Source: Streptomyces puniciscabiei
GTDB lineage: Bacteria; Actinomycetota; Actinomycetes; Streptomycetales; Streptomycetaceae
Assembly (NCBI RefSeq): GCF_006715785.1
Contig: NZ_VFNX01000001.1
Location: 2,246,501 to 2,310,500 of the forward strand
Direction of reading: 5' to 3'
DNA length: 64,000 bases
The position numbers were made by a program, and so were the translations under genes. Positions 13,974 through 26,164 of the stretch are shown here, one piece after another (position 1 is the first letter of the stretch; the number at the start of each line of letters is the position of its first letter). The notes beneath the pieces were generated by a model that was not told the DNA's origin, did no database searches, and saw nothing but the letters and a program-made list of their open reading frames with translations.

Positions 13974-15254
13974 TCACTCCGTCACCTGGACGATACAGCG
14001 GTTGGTCGCCACCCCGGCCGCGGTGACCACCTGCACCTCCACCGCGCCGGGCTCGACGTCGGCCGGTACGGGCACGGTCAGGACGCTGTCGGTGGGATTG
14101 CTGAAGCCGCCGGTGACGGGGACCAGCGGGACGTGCACGTCGACACTGCCGATGCGGACGACCATGCGGGAGAGCCGGTCCGCGCTCTGCGCGCCGGGCG
14201 GCACGAAACCGGCGCCACGGATCTCGATGTCGTCGCCGGTGCGGATCGGCCCGTCCAGGTCGCCGGGTTCTCGGGCGCGGACCACGGAGAGGACGACCGG
14301 GCGGCCGCCCTCGGCGTACTTGCCGGCCAAGTAGGTCATGGCCGAGATCAGCACCACCACGCCCAGTGCCCAGGGCAGGTCCGGCAGTTGGTCGGGGCGG
14401 CGGGCCAGCCGTACGGCGGCGAACAGCAGGGCGACGGCGCTGACGGCGACGTACTGGATGTCGGTGAAGGCGCCTCGGCCGGAGTCGTCGGTGAGCAGGT
14501 CGGCGGCGCGCGGCCGGTTGGCCGGCACCTTCTGCAGCCGCTGCGCGAGGATGCGCAGGCCCACCACCCGGCGGACGAGGACGGCGATGCCGCACACCAC
14601 GGCGAGGACGGTCACCACACCCGCGCCGCGCGCGAGGTCGAGGCCGGAGATCAGCGCGTCGCGTTGGGCGTGGTCGGAGGCGGCGGCCAGGCGTGCGGCC
14701 AGCAGGAGGACGGCGTAGCCGACGAACAGCACCCAGCAGGCGGCGACGGTACGGGAGGTGGACATGCGGTTGTCCTCGCCGATCACCGGGGCCAGCGCCC
14801 CGCCGCGCGCCCGGTGCAGCCAGGAGGCGGCGCCGAGCACACCGGCGACGACGAGCGCGGCGATCAGGGCCGCGGTGCGGGCGCCGGTCCAGCCCGCGCC
14901 GACCGCGGTGAGCGCCTCACCGAGCAGCAGCGCGAGCACCGCGCCCCACACGACGCACACCGTGCGCAGCCACAGCCGGGCGAGCCAGGCCTCGCCCTCG
15001 GCGCGGCCGCGTTCGGCGACGGTCTCCGCCCGCTGGGTCAGTTCCTCGGAGACCCACTGGCGGGAGGCCGAGGCCGAGTGCGCCACGGCCACCGGCAGGC
15101 CCTGCCCGGCCGCGAACTCGTCGCGTCGGCGCAGGAACGCGGCGACGGCCCGCCGGTGTCCCTCCCGGGCGCCGTGCGGGCAGTCCCCGCAGCTGCAGCC
15201 GCCCTGGTGGATCCCCTCGGCATCCGTGCCCTGTCTCGCCTCCTGCACCGCCAC
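13974..15254 (-). CDS. Large integral membrane protein with C-terminal beta-sandwich-like domain
   Basis: 426 residues from a GTG start. Near the N-terminus is a cysteine cluster CSCGDCPHG that could bind metal. Pairs of hydrophobic helices follow between about residues 85 and 300. After a 'YLAGKYAEGG' turn the last 120 residues form a soluble, beta-rich region with 'DDIEIRGAGFVPPGA' and 'PVPADVEPGAVEVQVVTAAG', which resembles an IPT/TIG Ig-like domain. No enzyme motif is visible. The function is unknown; a membrane scaffold or sensor is only a guess. Long open frames on the opposite strand of this gene are codon-bias shadows. Confidence 0.75.
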   Translation of the reverse strand: MAVQEARQGTDAEGIHQGGCSCGDCPHGAREGHRRAVAAFLRRRDEFAAGQGLPVAVAHSASASRQWVSEELTQRAETVAERGRAEGEAWLARLWLRTVCVVWGAVLALLLGEALTAVGAGWTGARTAALIAALVVAGVLGAASWLHRARGGALAPVIGEDNRMSTSRTVAACWVLFVGYAVLLLAARLAAASDHAQRDALISGLDLARGAGVVTVLAVVCGIAVLVRRVVGLRILAQRLQKVPANRPRAADLLTDDSGRGAFTDIQYVAVSAVALLFAAVRLARRPDQLPDLPWALGVVVLISAMTYLAGKYAEGGRPVVLSVVRAREPGDLDGPIRTGDDIEIRGAGFVPPGAQSADRLSRMVVRIGSVDVHVPLVPVTGGFSNPTDSVLTVPVPADVEPGAVEVQVVTAAGVATNRCIVQVTE

Positions 15255-15444
15255 GACCGGCGCCCGCCTTCCCCACGTCCTTCCGGCACGGCCGGCGGGC
15301 CCTCGTGGGAAGGCCCGGCTGCCGCGCAACTGCCCTGCGTCGACAGCGAATTGTGCCCTACGCCGAGCCGTCCGGGACCGTCGGACCGGGTCACGGCGGG
15401 TGAAGTACGGGCCGCCGTGTTGACCCGGCTGCGAGAATCTCCGT

Positions 15445-16332
15445 ATGGCCGAGATCATCCAGCGGGACGGGACCTGGGCCTTCGACGGCAGCACGATCCG
15501 GATCACCCCCGGACTGCACCGCTGTGTGCCGCTGTTCCGGCAGACGTACGGGGAGATCTCCGTGCCGCTGGAAGCCGTCTCGGACGTGGTCTGGGAACCC
15601 GAGCGCAAGCGTGGCCGGCTGCGGATGCGGCTGCGCGAGGGCGCCGACCCGCTGCTACAGGCGACGGGCGGGCGGCTGCCGGAGGCGGCCGACCCCTACC
15701 GGCTGACGGTGGATGCGGACCGCGGCGGGGTCGCGGAGTACGTCGCCGAGGAGATCCGGCACGCCCTGCTGCTGGACCGGATCCCCAAGGAACCCACGAC
15801 CGCCTATCTGCTGCCGGGTCCGCCGGTGCCGGTGTCCGTGCGGTCCTCCGACGGCACGGTCTCCTTCGACGGCACGCAGGTGCGCATCGACTGGGCCGAC
15901 ACCTCCGACCGGGTCAAGCGCGCGACCGGCCCGCGGATCATCACCCTCGGCGCCCTGGTGCAGGTGGAGTGGCTGCCCAACTCCGGGTTCGAGGACGGCT
16001 TTCTGCGGTTCGTGACCCCGGAGACGGTGTTCTCCAAGCTGCCGCCCGAGCGGGACCCCTACACCCTGGACCTGTGGGGCAGCGTGCGGCGGGATCTGCT
16101 GACCGCGCTGATCGCGACGGCCGTCACCGCCCGGCTGCCGCATCCCTCCACCCGCACGCGTGCCGGGTACGACGGCCGGGACCGGCGGCGCGGGACCGTA
16201 CCGGGGCAGGCCGACCAGCATGACGTACTGCTGCGCCGGCTGCGGGAGTTGGGCGAGCTGCACCGGGACGGGGTGCTCACGGACGAGGAGTTCGCGATGA
16301 CCAAGGCGGCGGTGCTCAGGGGGTTCGGCTGA
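15445..16332 (+). CDS. DUF4429 protein with C-terminal SHOCT-like helix
   Basis: 295 residues containing two similar all-beta segments, about 5-110 ('DGTWAFDGSTIRITPG') and about 120-230 ('DGTVSFDGTQVRIDWA'), the tandem pattern of DUF4429. The C-terminus 'LLRRLRELGELHRDGVLTDEEF' is a SHOCT motif, a short helix-turn-helix often tied to oligomerisation in bacterial membrane-associated proteins. These proteins are widespread in actinobacteria but have no known reaction. Divergent from the preceding membrane-protein gene, about 190 bases apart. Confidence 0.85.
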   Translation: MAEIIQRDGTWAFDGSTIRITPGLHRCVPLFRQTYGEISVPLEAVSDVVWEPERKRGRLRMRLREGADPLLQATGGRLPEAADPYRLTVDADRGGVAEYVAEEIRHALLLDRIPKEPTTAYLLPGPPVPVSVRSSDGTVSFDGTQVRIDWADTSDRVKRATGPRIITLGALVQVEWLPNSGFEDGFLRFVTPETVFSKLPPERDPYTLDLWGSVRRDLLTALIATAVTARLPHPSTRTRAGYDGRDRRRGTVPGQADQHDVLLRRLRELGELHRDGVLTDEEFAMTKAAVLRGFG

Positions 16333-16347
16333 GTATGCCCGGCGGGT

Positions 16348-17142
16348 TCAGCTCAGCAGGTCCGGCTCGCTGCGGCTGATGTCCTGCCACAGGGGCTGGT
16401 AGTTGATCCAGGCCACCAGGTCGCCGCCGAGCTGTTCGCGGGTGGCGACGGCCGGCTTGTGGTCGATGAGGACCGGGCGGCCGGCCGCCCTGGCCGTCAG
16501 CTGCACCTGGCAGCACCGCTCCATGGACAGGAACCACCAGGCGGCGGCGTCCACCGAGTCGCCGACGGTGAGCGTGCCGTGGTTGCGCAGCACGAGCGCC
16601 TTGCGGGAGCCGAGGGCCCCGGCGATCCGGCGGCCTTCCTCGATGTCCACGGTGACGCCGGTGTAGGCGTCGTAGAGGGCAACGTCCTCGTAGAAGGCGC
16701 AGCTCTCCTGGGTGATGGGGTCGATCAGCTCGCCCAGCGCGGCGAGGGCGCGGCCGTACACGGAGTTGCAGTGGGCGACGGCGACGACGTCCGGGCGGGC
16801 GGCGTGGACCTGGGCGTGCACGGTGAACGCGGCCTGGTTAACGTGATAGCGGCCCTCGACGACCTGACCGTCCTGGTTGGCGAGGACGAGATCGCTGACG
16901 GTGACGTGCCTGAACGGCATCCCGAACGGGTTGACCCAGAAGCAGTCGGTGAACTCCGGGTCGCGGGCGGTGATGTGCCCGGAGACCCCGTCCTCGAGGC
17001 CCATCCGGCCGAAGATCCGCAGCGCACCGGCGAGCCGCTCCTTGCGGTGCCGGCGCTCGTCCGCCACCGAGTCGAACATCGGCGGCATGGCGAACCGCAG
17101 CTGGTCGGTGGGCAGCGGCAGGGGCGGGGTGGGCCCGTGCAT
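16348..17142 (-). CDS. Class II aldolase/adducin family protein with altered metal site
   Basis: 264 residues spanning the whole class II aldolase/adducin fold, with conserved 'GHITARDPEFTDCFWVNPFG' (about 55-74) and 'LVLRNHGTLTVGDSVDAA' in the last third. In metal-dependent members such as fuculose-phosphate aldolase, zinc is held by an HxH motif and a later His. Here the HxH position reads AHCNS, so the second His is Asn, while the NHG histidine is kept. Either the metal site is altered or the protein has another role, as adducins do. Its neighbours (DUF4429, PNPOx) give no pathway. The start has AGGACC-type purines nearby. Confidence 0.85.
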   Translation of the reverse strand: MHGPTPPLPLPTDQLRFAMPPMFDSVADERRHRKERLAGALRIFGRMGLEDGVSGHITARDPEFTDCFWVNPFGMPFRHVTVSDLVLANQDGQVVEGRYHVNQAAFTVHAQVHAARPDVVAVAHCNSVYGRALAALGELIDPITQESCAFYEDVALYDAYTGVTVDIEEGRRIAGALGSRKALVLRNHGTLTVGDSVDAAAWWFLSMERCCQVQLTARAAGRPVLIDHKPAVATREQLGGDLVAWINYQPLWQDISRSEPDLLS

Positions 17143-17236
17143 AGGTCCTCCAGCACTGGGATTGCTCTACGAGCCGGAAGTTACCGCCGGTCAGCGCAAA
17201 AGGGCAGAGCCGTTTTGTAAAGATGACGTACGCGAC

Positions 17237-17265
17237 GCAAACCCGACAGAAGATGTCGGGTTTGC
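17237..17265. promoter_or_regulatory. Perfect 12-bp inverted repeat between divergent genes
   Basis: GCAAACCCGACA-GAAGA-TGTCGGGTTTGC, a perfect 12-bp inverted repeat with a 5-base spacer, lies 17 bases before the PNPOx-like start and 95 bases from the aldolase start. It sits in an unusually AT-rich divergent promoter region. Placement fits an operator, or a 5'-UTR hairpin for the plus-strand gene; it is not followed by a T run, so a terminator is unlikely. Confidence 0.5.
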
Positions 17266-17282
17266 CGGTGAGACTGGCGCGC

Positions 17283-17756
17283 ATGACACGGATGAACTGG
17301 GCGGCCTTCAGCTCCGCCGAACCCGAGCTGGCGGCGACCGTCGAGCAGCGGTTTCGTGCCTTCCGGCACCACGTCCTCGCCACCCTCCGCAGGGACGGCT
17401 CGCCGCGCACGTCCGGCCTGGAGGCCGACTTCCGCGGCGGCGAGCTGTGGTTCGGCATGATGGCGGGCTCGCGGAAAGCCCTCGACCTGCGGCGCGACCC
17501 GCGTTTCGCGCTCCAGGCGAACCCGGGCGAGGGCACGGGGATGGGCGGCGGGGACGTACGGATCGCGGGGCGGGCGTACGAGGTCGAGGGCGAGCGGAAG
17601 TCCGGATACGCGAAAGAGGTGGAACCGCCGGAGCCGTTCCACCTCTTGCGCACCGAGTTGACGGAGGTCGTGCGGACCTACGTCGAGGACGACCGGTACC
17701 TGGTCGTCCAGGTCTGGACGCCCGGTGAGCCCGTGCGCATGATCAGGCGCACATAG
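17283..17756 (+). CDS. Pyridoxamine 5'-phosphate oxidase-like flavin-binding protein
   Basis: 157-residue split-barrel protein of the PNPOx-like family, which uses FMN or F420. The core 'LATLRRDGSPRTSGLEADF' (about 34-52), 'GSRKALDLRRDPRFAL' (about 65-80) and 'RIAGRAYEV' match the usual order of this fold. Such small members are usually F420- or flavin-dependent reductases; which cofactor applies here is not decided. The ATG at 17283 was chosen because the one at 17223 would translate through the 12-bp inverted repeat. Confidence 0.85.
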   Translation: MTRMNWAAFSSAEPELAATVEQRFRAFRHHVLATLRRDGSPRTSGLEADFRGGELWFGMMAGSRKALDLRRDPRFALQANPGEGTGMGGGDVRIAGRAYEVEGERKSGYAKEVEPPEPFHLLRTELTEVVRTYVEDDRYLVVQVWTPGEPVRMIRRT

Positions 17757-17777
17757 GGGCTGCGGGAACCGTGGGGA

Positions 17778-19358
<1,581 letters not shown>

Positions 19359-20357
19359 GATGTGCCTTCCGGCGGTTTGGGCGGGGGTCTGTGCTACCGA
19401 TTCTAACGGGGTGTGCGCGGGGACAACTCAGGTCACCGCGGGCTCCGCCCCTGACCCCCGGCACCTCTGACCACCCGGTGGCCCGGCACGCGGGCCGCGG
19501 CCCGTCGGCCGGGGAGCGGGGCGGGGGTGGCTCGGTGGGCCGAGGCGTGGGTGAGGCAGCTCGGCGGGGCCCGGGGTTTTTGGGGGCAGCTCGGCGGGCC
19601 GGGTCTGGGTGGCGTGGTTCGGTCGGCAGGAACGGGGTGGAACGGCTCGGCCGGGCAGGTGCCGGGGTAACCCGACCGGGCACGGACAGGGACCACTCGG
19701 CCGGCCGGGAAGGAGCCGGGCGACTCAGCCGGCCAGAAACGAGGTGGAACGGCTCGGCCGGGCAGGTGCCGGGGTAACTCGACTGGGCAGGGGCAAGGGC
19801 GACTCGACCGGCCGGGAAGAGGCCCGGGCGGCTCAGCCGGCAAGAAACACGGAGTCGGACGGCTCGCTCGGACAGCGACAGGGAGCCCCTCGGCCGGCCG
19901 GGAAGGAGCCGAGGCGGCCCAGTCGGGGGCCGGCGGCTCGGTCCGCCAGGGGCAGGGACGGGCACTCGGCCAACCGGCAAGAGACCCCGGCAACCCAGTC
20001 GGGCAGAAACGGCGCGCGACCGCTCGCTCCGCCACGGACAGGGAGCCCCTCGGCCGGCCGGGAAGAGGCCCGGGCGGCTCAGCCGGCCAGAAACACGGAG
20101 TGGGACGGCTCGCTCGGACAGCGACAGGGAGCCACTCGGCCGGCCGGGAAGGAGCCGAGGCGGCCCAGTCGGGGGCCGGGCGGCTCGGTCCGCCAGGGGC
20201 AGGGACGGGCACTCGGCCAACCGGCAAGAGACCCCGGCAACCCAGTCGGGCAGAAACGGCGTGCGACCGCTCGCTCCGCCACGGACATGGTGAGCGGTCG
20301 GCCCGGAGGGGGCCAGGCCCTCGGTCGGTGGTAGGTGGGCCGTGGCATACTGGGCGC
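19359..20357. other. 1-kb gene-free stretch upstream of guaA and chorismate mutase
   Basis: Open frames here are long but repetitive, differ between strands and have no credible ribosome-binding sites, so I see no gene. It should hold the guaA promoter just upstream of 19358. The interval 19600-20290 is built of related GC-rich segments. One segment (about 19636 and 19743, 'GGTGGAACGGCTCGGCCGGG') recurs with about 107-base spacing, before the clear tandem duplication described separately. Confidence 0.6.
19810..20287. repeat. Tandem direct duplication, period 246-247 bp
   Basis: Copy A (19810-20040) and copy B (20056-20287) match over about 231 bases with roughly four substitutions and one inserted G. 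The block AGAAAC...CGGAG...GCTCGCTCGGACAGCG is present in both. The near identity implies a recent duplication or gene conversion. Both copies are non-coding as far as can be judged. Confidence 0.9.
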
Positions 20358-20429
20358 ATGCTTCAGCACGCGACCTTCGTCTTTACCTATGGCATCCGGC
20401 CCGCCGGCTGCCATGGTCGTGCTGCTTGA
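20358..20429 (+). CDS. Phe/Tyr-rich leader peptide of the chorismate mutase gene
   Basis: 23-codon reading frame beginning 186 bases before the chorismate mutase start. It encodes MLQHATFVFTYGIRPAGCH plus four residues. Phe-Val-Phe-Thr-Tyr are codons 7-11, so two Phe and one Tyr codon lie within five codons, both being end products of the chorismate mutase branch. A terminator hairpin lies 25 bases after its stop. This is the arrangement of a transcription attenuator: the ribosome should stall on the aromatic codons when charged tRNA is scarce. A CATACT element at 20346-20351 could be the -10 box, making the transcript short-leadered or leaderless. Confidence 0.75.
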   Translation: MLQHATFVFTYGIRPAGCHGRAA

Positions 20430-20454
20430 GCGCAACGCCAAGCGACTTCCCAGG

Positions 20455-20481
20455 CGCCCCGGGCCGACAAGGCCCGGGGCG
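20455..20481 (+). terminator. Attenuator hairpin upstream of chorismate mutase
   Basis: Perfect 11-bp stem CGCCCCGGGCC / GGCCCGGGGCG with loop GACAA, followed by TCTGTCGTTT. An alternative pairing exists: CGGCCCG at 20397-20403, just after the aromatic codons of the leader peptide, can pair with CGGGCCG at 20460-20466. This would destroy the terminator stem, giving an anti-terminator. Confidence 0.8.
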
Positions 20482-20543
20482 TCTGTCGTTTCCGGGTCCT
20501 GCCGTTCCGGGGCGTCCCGCCACCTTCACCAGGAGCCCCCGAC

Positions 20544-20822
20544 ATGACCACCACCACCCCGGAAGAGACCGTCTCGACCCCGGAAGAGACCATCGCCGAC
20601 GCCCGTGAGCGCATCGACGTGCTCGACGACCGGATCATCGGTCTCATCCAGGAGCGGATGGCCGTCTCCGCCGTCGTCCAGCAGACCCGCATCGCCTCCG
20701 GCGGACGCCGGGTGCACCTCTCCCGTGAGATGGAGATCCTCGGCCGTTACAGGGAGGCCCTCGGCAAGCCGGGCACCGGCCTCGCCATGACCCTGCTCGA
20801 GCTGTGCCGGGGCCGCATCTGA
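20544..20822 (+). CDS. Chorismate mutase, AroQ type
   Basis: 92-residue monofunctional AroQ enzyme that converts chorismate to prephenate, the branch point to phenylalanine and tyrosine. It is an all-helical fold with the first helix 'ERIDVLDDRIIGLIQERMAVS' (catalytic Arg in the first turn). The active-site region 'GRRVHLSREMEILGRYREAL' follows and the protein ends 'LELCRGRI'. The short N-terminal Thr/Glu-rich extension is variable in this family. An AGGAG site lies 8 bases before the ATG. A leader peptide and terminator upstream indicate attenuation by Phe/Tyr supply. Confidence 0.95.
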   Translation: MTTTTPEETVSTPEETIADARERIDVLDDRIIGLIQERMAVSAVVQQTRIASGGRRVHLSREMEILGRYREALGKPGTGLAMTLLELCRGRI

Positions 20823-21013
20823 GCGTCGTGTCCGAGCCGCACCGTGTACGAGAGGCGTGTCCGATCGTCGCGTCCACGCGCCGCGTCCGCGCGTCGTATC
20901 TGAGTTCGGGCGCCGTCTCACCCGTACGGCGCGTGACCGGCTCGCGCGGCGCTTCGTTGAGCGGGGTGTCCGTGCCAGCCAGGGGCGGGCCCGACAGAAC
21001 CACGCGTGGCTCG

Positions 21014-21066
21014 CTGGAGCGATGAGGCGTACGGGTCGTGCCGTACGCCGTGGGACCTCGCTCCAG
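21014..21066 (+). other. Compound hairpin of unknown role
   Basis: Outer 8-bp stem CTGGAGCG / CGCTCCAG (21014-21021 with 21059-21066) encloses a perfect 9-bp stem GGCGTACGG / CCGTACGCC (21026-21034 with 21041-21049) and a 6-base loop. It is not followed by T residues. It could be part of a structured RNA or a 3'-UTR element of the chorismate mutase transcript. Confidence 0.4.
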
Positions 21067-21339
21067 GGAAGTGACCGGACGGCAGGGGACAGCAGCCCGG
21101 TCACCCATGAGAACGGTCGGCTCCGGGGACGCCCGGGGCCGACCGGCGGAAAACTGCACATGCGCACCAGTGCCACGTCCCCGCACCGAGTCCCCGCACC
21201 GACAACGGCACGGCTGCACACCGTCCACCCCTCGGGAGCAGGACCACCCACCCCTCGGGATCAGGACCAAGGACCAGCGGCGCACCCCCCGGCGCCGCCC
21301 CGGGCACCGGCGCTGCCCTGACGCCGGTGCTGACCAGAA

Positions 21340-21377
21340 GAAGGGCCCCGCGGTCTCTCCGTCCCGCGGGGCCCTTC
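21340..21377 (+). terminator. Strong terminator in the gene-free stretch
   Basis: Perfect 14-bp stem GAAGGGCCCCGCGG / CCGCGGGGCCCTTC with a 10-base loop. No gene ends just upstream on either strand. Confidence 0.75.
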
Positions 21378-21565
21378 GTCACGCCCCGGCACACCGGGGA
21401 GCGTGTGGCCTACTTCACATCAACATCCCGTCGGATGACGCACAACCCTCCTCACGTGTCACGGGTCTCACCTACGCAACCAACGGCCATGCCCGTGCCC
21501 CACACACGCAGGCCTCCGACACGTGCTGCCGCGCGGCAGCACGCGAGCCCCACAAGAGGTCCTCG

Positions 21566-22603
21566 ATGAAGCTTCGCCGCGCCATGACGACCGCGGCTGC
21601 GACGGCTGCCCTCGCGCCGTTCGCCCTGGTCTGCGCCCCTGCCGCGTTCGCCGACGACTCCCCGAGCGCCACGGTCAGCAGCCCGGACGCGACCGAGTCG
21701 ACGCCCGCGGCCGACCCGAGCAGCAGCCCGGCCGCCGACACGAGCTCGCCCGCCGCCACGGCGTCGGACAGCCCGGCCGCCTCCGACTCGGCGAGCACCG
21801 GCACCTCGGCCTCCGCCTCCGCGTCCGAGTCGGCATCCGCGTCCGCCTCCGCGTCCACCTCCACCAGCCCCAGCGAGAGCGCCGAGCCCAGCGACGGGCC
21901 GACCACGCCGTCCGGGGTCTGCGAGGAGGACGACGCCCACTACAAGTCCAAGATCCACGCCTCGCTCAGCGGTCTGCCCGGCGAGATCGCCGTGGGCAGC
22001 GGCTGGCACCCCTTCACCCTCAGCGTCAAGAACCCGACGTCGAGCAACCTGAAGGACGTCATCTTCTACGCGGGTGTCGGTCCGAGCGACCCCAACGCCC
22101 AGTACGCCTTCCGGACCAGCCAGGTCCAGCTCCAGGTGAAGTACGACGGGGCCTGGTACGACGTCGAGGACGGCGCCGGTCACTCCAACGGCTACCTCGA
22201 CCTCAGCAACATCAAGGCCGGCCAGACGGTCAACTACCAGCTCCGGCTGAACGTGAAGGCGGGCGCCCCGGTCGGCGAGGGCCTGACCATCGGTGGCGGG
22301 ATGTACTTCGACGACGAGGAGAACTGCATCGGCACCGACCAGGCCAGCTACCTGATCAAGATCGTCAAGGCCGGTACGGACACCGACGGGACGAAGCCCC
22401 AGGAGGGCGGCCAGGTCCCGGTTCCCACCCAGAAGCCGAGCAAGACCAACACCCAGGACGTCACCGGCTCGCTCGCCGAGACCGGTTCCAGCTCCATGCT
22501 GCCGACCATCGGTCTGGTCGGCGGTGTCGCCGTCGTCGTCGGCGCCGGAGCGGTGTTCACCGTCCGCCGCCGCAAGGGCGCCGGTTCGAACACCGCCGCG
22601 TAA
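21566..22603 (+). CDS. LAETG cell-wall-anchored surface protein
   Basis: 345-residue exported protein with an N-terminal signal (about 1-30, cleavage near AFA-DD). A long Ser/Ala/Asp/Thr stalk (about 31-125) made of short repeats such as SASASASES follows. The folded domain at about 127-285 has one Cys near each end (GVCEED and EENCIG), and a Pro/Thr/Gln linker leads to the C-terminal sorting signal. The motif LAETG (about 308-312), a hydrophobic helix and the basic tail RRRKGAG form a class E sortase signal, so the protein should be linked to peptidoglycan. The middle domain has a beta-rich look ('SGWHPFTLSVKNPTSSNLKD'), as in adhesin or carbohydrate-associated folds. An AGAGG site precedes the ATG. 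Confidence 0.9.
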   Translation: MKLRRAMTTAAATAALAPFALVCAPAAFADDSPSATVSSPDATESTPAADPSSSPAADTSSPAATASDSPAASDSASTGTSASASASESASASASASTSTSPSESAEPSDGPTTPSGVCEEDDAHYKSKIHASLSGLPGEIAVGSGWHPFTLSVKNPTSSNLKDVIFYAGVGPSDPNAQYAFRTSQVQLQVKYDGAWYDVEDGAGHSNGYLDLSNIKAGQTVNYQLRLNVKAGAPVGEGLTIGGGMYFDDEENCIGTDQASYLIKIVKAGTDTDGTKPQEGGQVPVPTQKPSKTNTQDVTGSLAETGSSSMLPTIGLVGGVAVVVGAGAVFTVRRRKGAGSNTAA

Positions 22604-22633
22604 AGCGACGCCGCCGCGCAAGCGCGGTCGTAT

Positions 22634-22677
22634 GCCGAAGGGGCCTGCGCCAGGAGGGGGGCGCAGGCCCCTTCGGC
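22634..22677. terminator. Bidirectional terminator, 18-bp perfect stem
   Basis: GCCGAAGGGGCCTGCGCC pairs perfectly with GGCGCAGGCCCCTTCGGC across an 8-base loop, between the surface-protein gene and the convergent GMC oxidoreductase gene. Confidence 0.85.
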
Positions 22678-22686
22678 GTACCCGCG

Positions 22687-24492
22687 CTACTTCTTCGGCG
22701 GTACCGCCGGCATCCCCAGGAACGGCAGGCGCAGCGCGCCGAACGCCTCCGGGGGAACCGCCGGGGCCTCGGGCTCCACCGGCTTCAGCCGCTCGTACGC
22801 CGCCCCCTGTGCCGGACGCGGGTCCTCCTCCCCCTTGTTCGGCCAGAAGGACATCGCGCGCTCGGCCTGCGCGGTGATGGTCAGCGAGGGGTTCACGCCC
22901 AGGTTCGCCGAGACCGCGGCGCCGTCCACGACGGAGATGCCCGGGTGGCCGTAGAGGCGGTGGTAGGGGTCGATCACGCCGGTCTCCGCGGAGTCGCCGA
23001 TGGGGCAGCCGCCGAGGAAGTGCGCGGTGAGCGGGGTGCCCATCAGCTCGCCGACGTTGCTGCCGGCGAAGCCGTTGATCTCGGCGGCGAGCGCGGAGGC
23101 GGCCTCGGTGGCGGCCCTGATCTGCTTCGGGTTCGGCGCGCCGTGCCCCTGCCGCGCGGTGAGCAGGCCCTTGCCGACGCCGCCGGGCTTCAGATACGTC
23201 GTCAGGGAGTTGTCCAGCGACTGCATCACCAGGCCGATGATGGTCCGCTCGGACCAGCGCCGGTTGGACAGGGAGCGCAGGACCAGGAGCGGATGCCGGG
23301 CCGCGTTCGCCAGCCAGGCCAGCGCGCGGGAGGAGCCCTCGGCGTAGGGGACCTGGAGGATGGACAGGCCGCCCATCGAGTTGGAGCCCTTGCCGTAGCG
23401 GACCGGCTCGATGTGGGTGTTCTCGTCGGGGTGGATCGAGGACGTGATGGCCACGCCCCGCGTGAAGTCGGCCCTGGGCTCGCCGGTCGCCTTGCGATAG
23501 CGGCGGTCGTCGGTCTGCGCGCCCACCAGCGCCTCGGAGTTGGTGCGGGTCAGGTCGCCGAGCCGGGCGGAGAGGTACGGCAGCCGGCCGCCGGCCTTCA
23601 TCCGGTGCAGCAGGGTCTGTGTGCCGTAGGTGCCGGCCGCGAGGACGACGCGGCGCGCGGTGAAGAGCCGGCCCTCGCCCTTCTTCTTCCGGTCCGTCGG
23701 CAGGGTCGCCACGGCGTACCCGCCGCGTGAGTCGTCCGTGACGGACACGACCGTCGTCATGGGGTGGACCACCGCGCCCGCCTTCTCGGCGAGGTGGAGG
23801 TAGTTCTCGTTCAGGGTGTTCTTCGCGCCGTGCCGGCAGCCGGTCATGCACTCGCCGCACTCGGTGCAGGCGTTGCGGGACGGACCGGCGCCGCCGAAGT
23901 ACGGGTCGTTCACCTGCTCGCCGGGCCTGGCCTTCGCCTTGCCGTCCGCGTCCTTGCCGTCGCCGAAGAACACGCCGACCGGGGCGAGATGGAAGGTGTC
24001 GCCGACGCCCATCCGCTCGGCCGCCGCCTTCAGGTGCACGTCGGAGGGCGTCATCGTCGGGTTGAGCCGTACGCCGAGCATGCGCTGGGCCTGGTCGTAG
24101 TACGGCTTCAGCTCCTCCTGCCAGTCGGTGATGTCCCGCCACTGGGGGTCGTCGAAGAAGGCCTTCGGCGGTACGTAGAGGGTGTTGGCGTAGTTGAGCG
24201 AGCCGCCTCCGACGCCTGCGCCGGCGAGGACCATGACGTTGCCGAGCAGGTGGATGCGCTGGATGCCGAACATGCCGAGCCTGGGGGCCCAGAGGTAGTT
24301 CTTCAGGTCCCAGGAGTTCTTGGGCAAGGTGTCGCGGGTGAAGCGGCGGCCTGCTTCGAGCACGCCGACCCGGTATCCCTTCTCGGTCAGGCGGAGGGCG
24401 GACACGGAACCGCCGAACCCCGATCCGACCACGATGACGTCGTAGTCGTACCCGTCCTCGTCCCGGGTCTGGACAGACTTCTCCTGCGACAC
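22687..24492 (-). CDS. GMC-family oxidoreductase with ferredoxin-like cysteine motif (ChoD-like)
   Basis: 601-residue FAD-dependent alcohol oxidase/dehydrogenase. The Rossmann motif GSGFGGS is at about residue 23, followed by 'GAGVGGGSLNYA' for FAD binding. At about 210-225 it has CTECGECMTGC, a C-x2-C-x2-C-x3-C pattern also found in cholesterol-oxidase-like ChoD proteins of mycobacteria. The C-terminal half carries 'GGLSILQVP' and the closing FAD motif 'VVDGAAVSANLGVNPSLTI'. The GTG start has GAGGAG 5 bases upstream. It lies 58 bases after the succinic semialdehyde dehydrogenase gene on the same strand, so they form one operon. The substrate is likely a sterol-like or long-chain alcohol, which is not provable here. 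Confidence 0.88.
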   Translation of the reverse strand: MSQEKSVQTRDEDGYDYDVIVVGSGFGGSVSALRLTEKGYRVGVLEAGRRFTRDTLPKNSWDLKNYLWAPRLGMFGIQRIHLLGNVMVLAGAGVGGGSLNYANTLYVPPKAFFDDPQWRDITDWQEELKPYYDQAQRMLGVRLNPTMTPSDVHLKAAAERMGVGDTFHLAPVGVFFGDGKDADGKAKARPGEQVNDPYFGGAGPSRNACTECGECMTGCRHGAKNTLNENYLHLAEKAGAVVHPMTTVVSVTDDSRGGYAVATLPTDRKKKGEGRLFTARRVVLAAGTYGTQTLLHRMKAGGRLPYLSARLGDLTRTNSEALVGAQTDDRRYRKATGEPRADFTRGVAITSSIHPDENTHIEPVRYGKGSNSMGGLSILQVPYAEGSSRALAWLANAARHPLLVLRSLSNRRWSERTIIGLVMQSLDNSLTTYLKPGGVGKGLLTARQGHGAPNPKQIRAATEAASALAAEINGFAGSNVGELMGTPLTAHFLGGCPIGDSAETGVIDPYHRLYGHPGISVVDGAAVSANLGVNPSLTITAQAERAMSFWPNKGEEDPRPAQGAAYERLKPVEPEAPAVPPEAFGALRLPFLGMPAVPPKK

Positions 24493-24550
24493 GTGCTCTC
24501 CTCGTCGAGAACGGGGGGTTTGCGAACGGGGTTGGCGGGGATCGGGACTT

Positions 24551-26164
24551 CTAGCGGAACCGGAATGTCTTCATCAGGCGCAGACTCGTGCTCATGAAGC
24601 GGGCGTACGCCTCGTCCGTCATGCCCAGCGACGGCGCCATCGGCAGCAACCGCTGCTGGGCCACCGTCTGGGCCTCCGTGTACTTGAGGATGCCCTCGGA
24701 GCCGTGGCGGCGGCCGAGACCGGAGTCCTTCATGCCGCCCATCGGGGACTGGACGCTGCCGTAGGCGGGGGCGTAGCCCTCGTTGACGTTGACCGTGCCG
24801 GTGCGCAGTCGGGCGGCGACCTCGCGGCCGCGCCGGGCGCTGGTCGTCCAGACCGAGGAATTGAGGCCGTACGGCGTGGCGTTGGCGCGCTCGATCGCCT
24901 CGTCGTCGCTCTTGAACCGGTAGATGGAGACGACCGGGCCGAAGGTCTCCTCCTCGCAGACGGCCATGGAGTCCTCGACGCCGTCGAGGATGGTCGGCTC
25001 GAAGAAGTAGGGGCCGATGTCGGGGCGGGCCCGGCCGCCCGCGAGCACCTTCGCGCCCTTGGCGACGGCCTCCTCCACATGCCGCTCGACGGTCTTCAGC
25101 TGGCGCTCGCCGACCAGCGAGCCCATGTCGGCGCCGTAGGCGAGGGAGTTGCCGAGCCGCATGGCCCTGGTGCGGGCGGCGAAGCGCTCCAGGAAGGCGT
25201 CGGCGACCGACTCGTGGACGTACAGCCGCTCGATGGAGATGCAGAGCTGGCCGGCGGAGGAGAAGCAGGCGCGCACGGCTCCGGCGGCGGCCTTCTCGAT
25301 GTCGGCGTCGTCGAGGACCAGCATGGCGTTCTTGCCGCCGAGTTCGAGGGACACTCCGACCAGGCGGGCCGCCGCTCCTTGCGCGACCTCGCGCCCTGTG
25401 CGGGTGGAGCCGGTGAAGGAGACGTAGTCGGCGTGCCGGACGACCTCCGGGCCGACGACCGGGCCCTCGCCCAGCACCACCTGGAAGACGCCCTCGGGCA
25501 GACCGGCCTCGATGAGCAGGTCGCGGGCCCACAGCGCGGTGAGGCAGGTCTCGGTGTCCGGCTTCATCACGACCGCGTTGCCGGCGACGAAGGCGGGCAG
25601 CGCGTCGCCGACCGACAGTTCCAGGGGGTAGTTCCAGGGGGCGATCTGGCCGATGACGCCGCGCGGGTGGCGGAGTTCGGTGACCTTCGTGAGTGTCGGG
25701 ACGGCGCCGGTGTGCCGCCTGGGCCGCAGGTAGGCGGGGGCCTTGCGGCCGTAGTGACGGGCGGCGACGGCGACGGCCTGCACCTCCTCGTGCGCGTGCA
25801 GCCGGGCCTTGCCGGTCTCCAGCTGGATCAGGTCGAGCACCTCGGCCTGACGCTGCAGCACCAGGTCGTGGAAGCGGAGCAGGACGGCGGCCCGCTGCCG
25901 TACGGGGGTCTTCTCCCACACGGCCTGGGCGGACCGGGCCGCCTCGAAGGCCTTCTGTACGTCCTCGGGGGTGGACTCCGGCAGGTCGGCCAGCTTCTCG
26001 CCGGTGAACGGGGTGTGGTTGGCGGTCCGGCCGGAGCCGACGACGCCCTTGGTGAGCTGGGCCACCAGTTCCGGGGTGACCACGTCGGCGGCGGTGCGGA
26101 CGCCCTCGGGGGCGGGCGCGAGCGGGTTGGTGCCGGTGCTGTCCGGGGCCTGCGTGTCCGTCAT
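24551..26164 (-). CDS. Succinate-semialdehyde dehydrogenase (NADP-type) / aldehyde dehydrogenase
   Basis: 537-residue aldehyde dehydrogenase that oxidises an aldehyde to its acid with NAD(P). The nucleotide-binding segment FTGSTRTGREV, the general base Glu in 'LELGGKNAMLVL' and the catalytic Cys in 'GQLCISIERLYV' are all present. The 'PWNYPLELSVGDALPAFVAGN' signature matches the GabD2 subgroup of actinobacteria, hence the succinic-semialdehyde call. First gene of an operon with the GMC oxidoreductase; an alcohol oxidase followed by an aldehyde dehydrogenase would make a two-step oxidation. A perfect 24-bp palindrome 71 bases upstream is a likely operator. Confidence 0.9.
   Translation of the reverse strand: MTDTQAPDSTGTNPLAPAPEGVRTAADVVTPELVAQLTKGVVGSGRTANHTPFTGEKLADLPESTPEDVQKAFEAARSAQAVWEKTPVRQRAAVLLRFHDLVLQRQAEVLDLIQLETGKARLHAHEEVQAVAVAARHYGRKAPAYLRPRRHTGAVPTLTKVTELRHPRGVIGQIAPWNYPLELSVGDALPAFVAGNAVVMKPDTETCLTALWARDLLIEAGLPEGVFQVVLGEGPVVGPEVVRHADYVSFTGSTRTGREVAQGAAARLVGVSLELGGKNAMLVLDDADIEKAAAGAVRACFSSAGQLCISIERLYVHESVADAFLERFAARTRAMRLGNSLAYGADMGSLVGERQLKTVERHVEEAVAKGAKVLAGGRARPDIGPYFFEPTILDGVEDSMAVCEEETFGPVVSIYRFKSDDEAIERANATPYGLNSSVWTTSARRGREVAARLRTGTVNVNEGYAPAYGSVQSPMGGMKDSGLGRRHGSEGILKYTEAQTVAQQRLLPMAPSLGMTDEAYARFMSTSLRLMKTFRFR

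Follow-up and report, generated by a model that had tools for sequence, protein, structure and literature searches.

The window analysed here is a stretch of 64,000 nucleotides from Streptomyces puniciscabiei (contig NZ_VFNX01000001.1, positions 2,246,501 to 2,310,500), and all coordinates are counted from its first letter. It contains aroQ, a gene for a stand-alone chorismate mutase. Chorismate mutase sets the share of chorismate that is used for Phe and Tyr as against Trp, and compounds derived from chorismate are used in the making of many antibiotics. The gene is preceded by a short open reading frame (ORF) and by RNA segments predicted to adopt alternative folds. The features of the locus are as follows:

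20346..20351, + strand: -10-like box CATACT, ending 6 nt before the leader ATG
20358..20429, + strand: leader ORF encoding MLQHATFVFTYGIRPAGCHGRAA*, with the frame kept at 175 of 175 testable loci and in seven lengths
20382..20390, + strand: sensor codons TTT-ACC-TAT (Phe9, Thr10, Tyr11), from codon counts in 176 loci
20389..20414, + strand: P1, the predicted anti-antiterminator hairpin, pairing ATGGCA (20389-20394) with TGCCAT (20409-20414) and CCGG (20396-20399) with CCGG (20404-20407)
20397..20466, + strand: predicted antiterminator, pairing 20397-20403 with 20460-20466, 20406-20408 with 20456-20458, 20410-20412 with 20453-20455, and 20414-20416 with 20450-20452, and enclosing P2
20424..20443, + strand: P2 stem, pairing GCTTG (20424-20428) with CAAGC (20439-20443), from folding and the swap test
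20451..20485, + strand: terminator hairpin, 15 pairs (20451-20465 with 20471-20485) and the loop GACAA
20544..20822, + strand: aroQ, encoding a 92-aa stand-alone chorismate mutase of the high-GC Gram-positive type (PF01817, NF005894, TIGR01808)

The AroQ protein of the window matched PF01817 with 32.1 bits in Pfam, and NF005894 and TIGR01808 with 115.5 and 54.9 bits, respectively, in NCBIfam, both above the cut-off; its start at 20544 is preceded by AGGAG. The leader ORF has 23 codons, with Phe-Val-Phe-Thr-Tyr at codons 7-11, exactly as the first-pass annotation of this DNA had described. Folding of 20358-20490 gave an energy of -75.7 kcal/mol, compared to -51.6 for shuffled sequences (z -6.9). 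A search of positions 15000-26000 against Rfam 15 returned no match at the leader, the single match, below the gathering score, being at 22584, outside the leader; the same search on 20 leader loci returned four matches, all far under the gathering score. A sigma-70 scan of the window reported no promoter at the leader, and a simple terminator scan found no terminator with a U run there, the stem being followed on its 3′ side by TCGTTT. Degenerate tandem repeats (19627-20287; periods 53/107 and 86; 67-86% matches) occupy much of the gap between guaA, on the minus strand, and the aroQ leader. Downstream, an ORF at 21038-22603 (+) has an inner part that begins with the signal-like MKLRRAMTTAAATAALAP, and ends in LAETG with a hydrophobic segment and a basic tail behind it (SLAETGSSSMLPTIGLVGGVAVVVGAGAVFTVRRRKG); by this motif, it looks like a sortase-anchored surface protein.

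The leader was found in nearly all Streptomyces genomes examined. Of 150 Streptomyces genomes searched, 133 carried the motif TTYACCTATGGC..GCCATGG, 132 of them exactly once and one, G105, twice, the second being a chance match; a reversed control pattern had no match in the same 150 genomes. The genome of the window itself holds one exact match to the 13-base motif, and six more with one mismatch. AroQ was found in 147/150 genomes, and a covariance model built from 65 leaders detected the element once per genome in 147/150. The model missed G008 (AroQ at a contig end), G073 (a degenerate leader, L181, with no Phe at the motif), and G103 (AroQ not found). One leader (L054) is present, though the motif search had missed it. 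Letter conservation of the element is very high within Streptomyces. In the family as a whole, AroQ matches were obtained in 94/121 genomes and 17/17 genera, and the leader was located in 56 of 60 chosen upstream regions, representing 16/17 genera. The four without a regular leader were L176 (contig end), the degenerate L181, and L200 and L201 of genus g14. At these two g14 loci, no leader precedes the AroQ-like match, which is itself a distant one (50% identity), and many g14 genomes gave no AroQ match. The set of 176 loci used below consisted of 122 distinct leaders from 140/147 loci, minus L011, which showed no terminator by a stricter search, plus 55/60 family loci; the family loci dropped were L176 (contig end), L200 and L201 (no leader), L181 (degenerate), and L186 (long terminator loop).

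The reading frame of the leader is conserved independently of its length. When the first ATG or GTG after the -10-like box was taken as the start, with frame disregarded, it was in frame with the Phe9 codon at 175/175 Streptomycetaceae loci, in seven leader lengths with start-to-Phe9 distances of 18 to 42 nt; the list of boxes for this test was drawn up after the loci had been viewed, and L172, which has no -10-like box, was outside the testable loci. The first-pass annotation had named loss of the leader frame in relatives as a ground for rejecting it, and the frame was thus seen to hold. The C-terminal half of the peptide is variable, with frame shifts in L161, L162, and L203, a truncation in L047, and different ends in L012 and L084. 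In all 175 loci, the start codon lies 12-14 nt from the start of the box, i.e., 6-8 nt past it. Among 52 loci of other families (see below), an xAxxxT hexamer 6-8 nt before the start was present in 48, versus 165 of 1344 background ATG/GTG codons. The 12-14 nt spacing would place the transcription start at the start codon, and the message is therefore probably leaderless, beginning at the A of the leader ATG. A transcription start downstream of 20430, which would have spoken against the attenuator, was another concern raised earlier; the box spacing puts the likely start at 20358 instead.

Codon counts were made in the 176 loci, with numbering that follows the leader of the window, as leaders vary in length before the motif. 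Codon 9 was TTT in 173 loci and TTC in three, and codon 11 was TAT in 172, TAC in two, and CAT and CAG in one each, so that these two aromatic codons, which might have been expected to vary freely if the frame were incidental, do not (TTT/TTC in 176/176; TAT/TAC in 174/176). Since 23 of the 176 loci had been found with a pattern that already required TTY-ACC-TAT, the remaining 153, picked by AroQ alone, were counted separately, and gave TTT in 150 and TTC in three at codon 9, and TAT or TAC in 151 at codon 11. Codon 12 was GGC in 176/176. Codon 7 was TTC in 139/176 and never TTT, and Phe7 is thus not conserved. TTT is rare in the window: among the 277 Phe codons of 27 long ORFs chosen by composition, it occurred 5 times, and TAT was used for 22 of the 279 Tyr codons in these ORFs. 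In the predicted fold of the window, letters 2-3 of TAT and the GGC codon are tied to P1, and the three letters of TTT9 are unpaired; the rare, wobble-read TTT9 was therefore probably selected for something other than pairing. Slow decoding of a single obligatory sensor codon may be the reason. A near-invariant TTT where long ORFs use TTC allows one to ask whether attenuators choose slow codons when they have a single sensor codon.

The terminator stem contains 15 pairs, including one G-T pair, and its 11 loop-proximal pairs are all Watson-Crick; the "perfect 11-bp terminator" reported earlier is thus confirmed as the inner part of a longer stem. The mutually exclusive 7-bp pairing proposed in the same annotation (CGGCCCG, 20397-20403, with CGGGCCG, 20460-20466) does exist, but it is merely the outer end of a longer antiterminator, and was ruled out as the whole structure by folding, in which 20397-20416 pairs with 20450-20466 and encloses P2. 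In the predicted layout, an outer helix is followed inward by three short stems with P2 enclosed, and P1 competes with the antiterminator. Folding and swap tests (see below) both indicate that the antiterminator shares the 5′ arm of the terminator.

The effect of ribosome position was examined by folding. In the first folding test, the RNA was cut on its 5′ side at a ribosome waiting on Phe9, and on its 3′ side before the 3′ arm of the terminator; in such cut RNAs, the P1 loop region held the terminator 5′ arm in 8/8 Streptomyces leaders that were tried first. With the ribosome edge at +12, the mean probability in 170 loci that the terminator 5′ arm was held upstream fell from 0.85 for a ribosome with Phe9 in its A site to 0.65 for Tyr11, 0.29 for the position two codons past Tyr11, and 0.13 at the stop codon. 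Moving the edge to 15 nt changed the Phe9 and Tyr11 values of 0.85 and 0.65 to 0.84 and 0.51. The corresponding values for the window (edge 12 nt) were 0.89, 0.65, 0.30, and 0.12. Arm capture took a similar course across the codons in 26 loci of other families. A ribosome on any codon before Phe9 captured the arm nearly equally well (0.75-0.85), and Phe9 is, in these calculations, the last fully permissive codon rather than the sole one. The predicted switch point therefore coincides with the Phe-x-Tyr motif. The "combined Phe/Tyr sensor" of the first-pass annotation needs to be restated accordingly: Phe9 is near-universal and Tyr11 is conserved, but Phe7 is not, and a ribosome held at Tyr11 would free the antiterminator only partly. 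As the predicted release is weaker at Tyr11 than at Phe9, the wording "Phe first, Tyr second" is preferable. In a ribosome-free equilibrium, the antiterminator had a probability of 0.79 in the window, the mean over loci being 0.47; since the antiterminator also forms without a ribosome, the off state would need folding order or a moving ribosome. When the 3′ arm was present, the terminator was the stablest state in 8/8 leaders folded, and as it is the stablest once complete, the on state would be kinetic.

The paired strands were found to co-vary. Alignment of 65 sequences showed that 99.6% of cells are paired over the 13 terminator pairs counted, with two-sided changes in 6 pairs. In one fixed register, the P1 stems were paired in 97.2% and 65.8% of cells, and P2 (and the P1 tip) in only 51-85%; P1, P2, and the terminator taken jointly had 37 two-sided cells, compared to 13.4 (0/500; column counts). 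For the antiterminator, counts on a sequence-only, fixed-register alignment were mixed, with 22 two-sided cells versus 14.5 (2/500 shuffles) and seven pairs versus 6.3 (217/500), and were set aside as a test of this structure. Because lineages use two pairing registers, register-free swap tests were used, in which the 5′ strand of each lineage was paired with the terminator arm of every other lineage, and the energies of matched and swapped combinations were compared; loci with terminators of fewer than 12 pairs, as well as L142 and L172, were excluded. In Streptomycetaceae (12 groups), the outer antiterminator helix had an energy of -21.5 when matched and -19.3 when swapped, and only 3 of 10,000 permutations were as good. 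Addition of 26 loci of other families (26 groups) gave -19.6 versus -16.8 (0/10,000), and a coarser grouping of this larger set into 8 groups gave 1/10,000. The other families alone (11 groups) gave -18.5 matched versus -14.9 swapped (0/10,000). Swap tests of P2 gave 0/10,000 in Streptomycetaceae, and likewise with other families, and that of P1 gave 31/10,000 in Streptomycetaceae. The check suggested earlier, that the strands of the alternative pairing should co-vary across relatives, thus had a positive outcome in the swap tests (3/10,000 and 0/10,000), with mixed fixed-register counts.

The element is very probably a ribosome-mediated transcription attenuator of aroQ, which would sense Phe first and Tyr second. 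The original reading, leader-peptide attenuation of chorismate mutase, draws support from the frame, the codons and their match to the target enzyme, the co-variation, the position of the switch in folding calculations, and the presence of the element once in nearly every genome of the genus. In the proposed mechanism, the first transcribed base would be the A of the leader's ATG, and ribosomes would load directly on the leaderless message. When charged tRNA-Phe is scarce, the ribosome would wait at codon 9 (TTT), where its leading edge would cover most or all of the P1 5′ arm (20389-20394) and halt just short of 20397. The segment 20397-20416 could then pair with 20450-20466, the terminator's own 5′ arm, and transcription would continue into aroQ. 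When Phe is plentiful, the ribosome would pass the motif and reach the stop codon, covering the 5′ strand of the antiterminator, so that the terminator would form and RNA polymerase would stop near 20490. Waiting at Tyr11 would lead to partial antitermination. If the leader were not translated, P1 and the terminator would form as the default, aided by folding order. Several observations count against this reading: neither a U run nor a sigma-70 promoter was reported by the scans; the antiterminator forms at equilibrium with no ribosome, and codons ahead of Phe9 are permissive as well; the terminator is the stablest state once its 3′ arm is present; the fixed-register counts for the antiterminator are mixed; a classical attenuator would be expected to have more than one obligatory Phe codon; and L181 retains a leader with no Phe at the motif.

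Searches with the model were extended beyond the family (two of the class, one of the order, and one of the phylum), and 75 hits were chosen and fetched. Of these, 52 loci were counted; a further 22, for which neither an AroQ nor a DAHP synthase was detected in the ~1 kb fetched (less for L258), were dropped; and L300 was left out, because it combines a weak AroQ match with a leader containing one Phe. L299, among the 75, is a second hit in the genus of the window. Loci were kept by their downstream gene, and the Trp contrast described below was not a selection criterion; the start codons were assigned by the author, and the peptides were also viewed when the loci were judged. Among the DAHP synthases, one example was assigned by PF00793, PF18152, and NF006421, and the rest by tblastn. 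All 52 loci, which lie outside Streptomycetaceae, contain a short ORF that is rich in aromatic codons and probably leaderless; it precedes AroQ at 19 loci in nine families, and class I DAHP synthase at 33 loci, also in nine families. Leaders of both kinds are present in family f31, and family f59 belongs to another class of the phylum. Counting Streptomycetaceae, the leader precedes AroQ in 10 families and DAHP synthase in nine.

The codon content of the leaders differs between the two targets. A Trp codon is present in the first 14 positions of 27 of the 33 leaders before DAHP synthase, versus 0/19 before AroQ outside Streptomycetaceae (0/20 if L300 is included) and 8/175 inside. Families with at least one Trp leader numbered 7/9 for DAHP synthase versus 0/10 for AroQ (Fisher p 7e-4) when Streptomycetaceae were scored as lacking Trp, as most of their leaders do; when they were scored as having it, the numbers were 7/9 versus 1/10 (p 0.005). 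DAHP synthase serves the synthesis of Phe, Tyr, and Trp, and AroQ that of Phe and Tyr only; the leader codons thus match the products of the enzyme, and the Trp contrast between the two targets serves as a natural test that they do. Common descent of the AroQ and DAHP synthase leader sets is likely, judging from their shared layout and their detection by one model. On balance, the data favor a single ancient leader class of Actinomycetota, leaderless, with a Phe-x-Tyr-Gly motif and a common antiterminator design, that would control both entry points of aromatic amino acid synthesis, with Phe and Tyr, rarely Trp, codons before chorismate mutase and mostly Phe, Tyr, and Trp codons before class I DAHP synthase, the codon set having been re-tuned to the products of the enzyme. 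This shared design for the two enzymes, with Trp codons mostly added for DAHP synthase, is the part that may surprise specialists.

Other explanations were considered for the conserved motif. TnaC is an example of nascent-peptide arrest, and a Phe-x-Tyr-Gly peptide could similarly stall the ribosome in response to a small molecule (an aromatic amino acid, chorismate, or prephenate), in which case the codons would matter as peptide rather than as sensors of charged tRNA. The recurrence of a Phe/Trp-x-Tyr-Gly-like motif across many families, together with the invariance of GGC at codon 12, fits such a mechanism. However, GGC12 is accounted for by P1 pairing, the position between Phe and Tyr varies freely, and Trp occurs mostly where the target serves Trp synthesis. 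A conserved peptide C-terminus as the arrest signal was ruled out, given that frame and length differ between species in this half (the loci with frame shifts, truncation, or other ends listed above). Nascent-peptide arrest is thus considered very improbable.

The very high letter conservation in Streptomyces might also reflect a binding site for a protein or ligand in a riboswitch-like RNA, in which the ORF would be incidental, and the available part of a survey (PMC1262725) reports that, in mutation tests, the ilvB and leuA leaders of S. coelicolor gave results unlike those of classical attenuators. An incidental ORF is difficult to reconcile with a frame that is kept through seven lengths and that begins at a set distance from the -10 box, or with the distribution of aromatic residues in the 52 loci, which account for 212/676 residues in codons 2-14 but only 2/421 in later codons. 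The Trp content that tracks the target, and the lack of an Rfam match at the leader, further argue against it, and a binding RNA is given very little credence. Similarly small is the chance that the leader merely couples translation to the message, through a plain terminator or translation- or Rho-based control with no amino-acid sensing. The weak U tract would suit such control, and Rho-dependent termination was suggested for actinobacterial cys leaders in the same portion of that survey (PMC1262725); yet such control would have no need of an antiterminator that co-varies and competes for the terminator arm, or of a predicted switch point at the aromatic codons. Attenuation by a translated, Phe-first leader is retained as the preferred reading.

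In E. coli, the pheL leader contains numerous Phe codons and has an ordinary ribosome-binding site. As in pheL-pheA, leader Phe codons are proposed here to control a chorismate mutase gene through a choice between terminator and antiterminator, but the aroQ leader has one obligatory Phe codon and a probably leaderless message, and its target is a stand-alone AroQ. Its layout, a leader peptide followed by hairpins, also resembles that of the Streptomyces trpL, leuL, ilvL, metL, thrL, and alaL leaders, several of which are leaderless, although these serve other amino acids, as far as the accessible sections of two papers go (PMC8079986, PMC1262725). The list of eight leader peptides given for S. 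lividans (leu twice, trp twice, ala, ilv, met, and thr) contains none for Phe or Tyr in the part available (PMC8079986), and in the excerpted 2005 survey of Actinobacteria, phenylalanine and tyrosine operons are reported to have no conserved RNA structure upstream of them (PMC1262725); a proposed control point carried by 147/150 genomes of the genus is thus absent from both. No actinobacterial chorismate mutase leader was described among the matches listed in a literature search, for which subscription journals were mostly outside the scope. Attenuator leaders are a known kind of element; the aroQ leader itself was not found described.

The nearest actinobacterial counterpart is the aroR leader of C. 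glutamicum, reportedly described upstream of aroF by Neshat et al. in 2014. It encodes Phe-Tyr-Phe before aroF (PMC4046766), and was stated to answer to Phe, not Tyr (PMC11802643), or to be under control by both Phe and Tyr (PMC7356990), in the portions of these papers at hand. On these partial accounts, aroR is likewise an actinobacterial aromatic leader peptide before an entry enzyme of the shikimate pathway, and its reported response to Phe but not Tyr fits the Phe-first geometry predicted here; unlike the aroQ leader, it precedes DAHP synthase rather than AroQ. The f17-type DAHP synthase was abandoned as a route to aroR in family f4, as it was found in just 1/91 genomes. Five genomes from genus g155 of this family were searched with PF00793 (Pfam), which led to two loci with aroR-like leaders before DAHP synthase, L293 (MRNWRFYFEWGSGR*, 1105-1149, +) and L294 (MWRFYF..., minus strand). 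When L293 was folded, its long alternative pairing, judged by eye, was located just before the terminator and not in the terminator 5′ arm. Homology to aroR is a candidate relationship at most: L293 and L294 show similar residues (Trp-Arg-Phe-Tyr-Phe), but the long pairing of L293 lies outside the terminator arm.

Two further loci types were noted during the searches. In G466 of family f17, whose DAHP synthase has an aromatic leader (L241), the AroQ-like gene at L300 is accompanied by a hairpin and a probably leaderless ORF with one Phe (MTHRTSVFSQPTDPSAALT*), near base 116 of the sequence fetched. In family f19 (L247, L263, and L266), the model weakly matched a conserved stretch with a GC-rich terminator, and the sequence fetched there held neither an AroQ nor a DAHP synthase; L247 and L263 contain a short ORF (VAAPASVVVPGPVTGK..SGLTT*).
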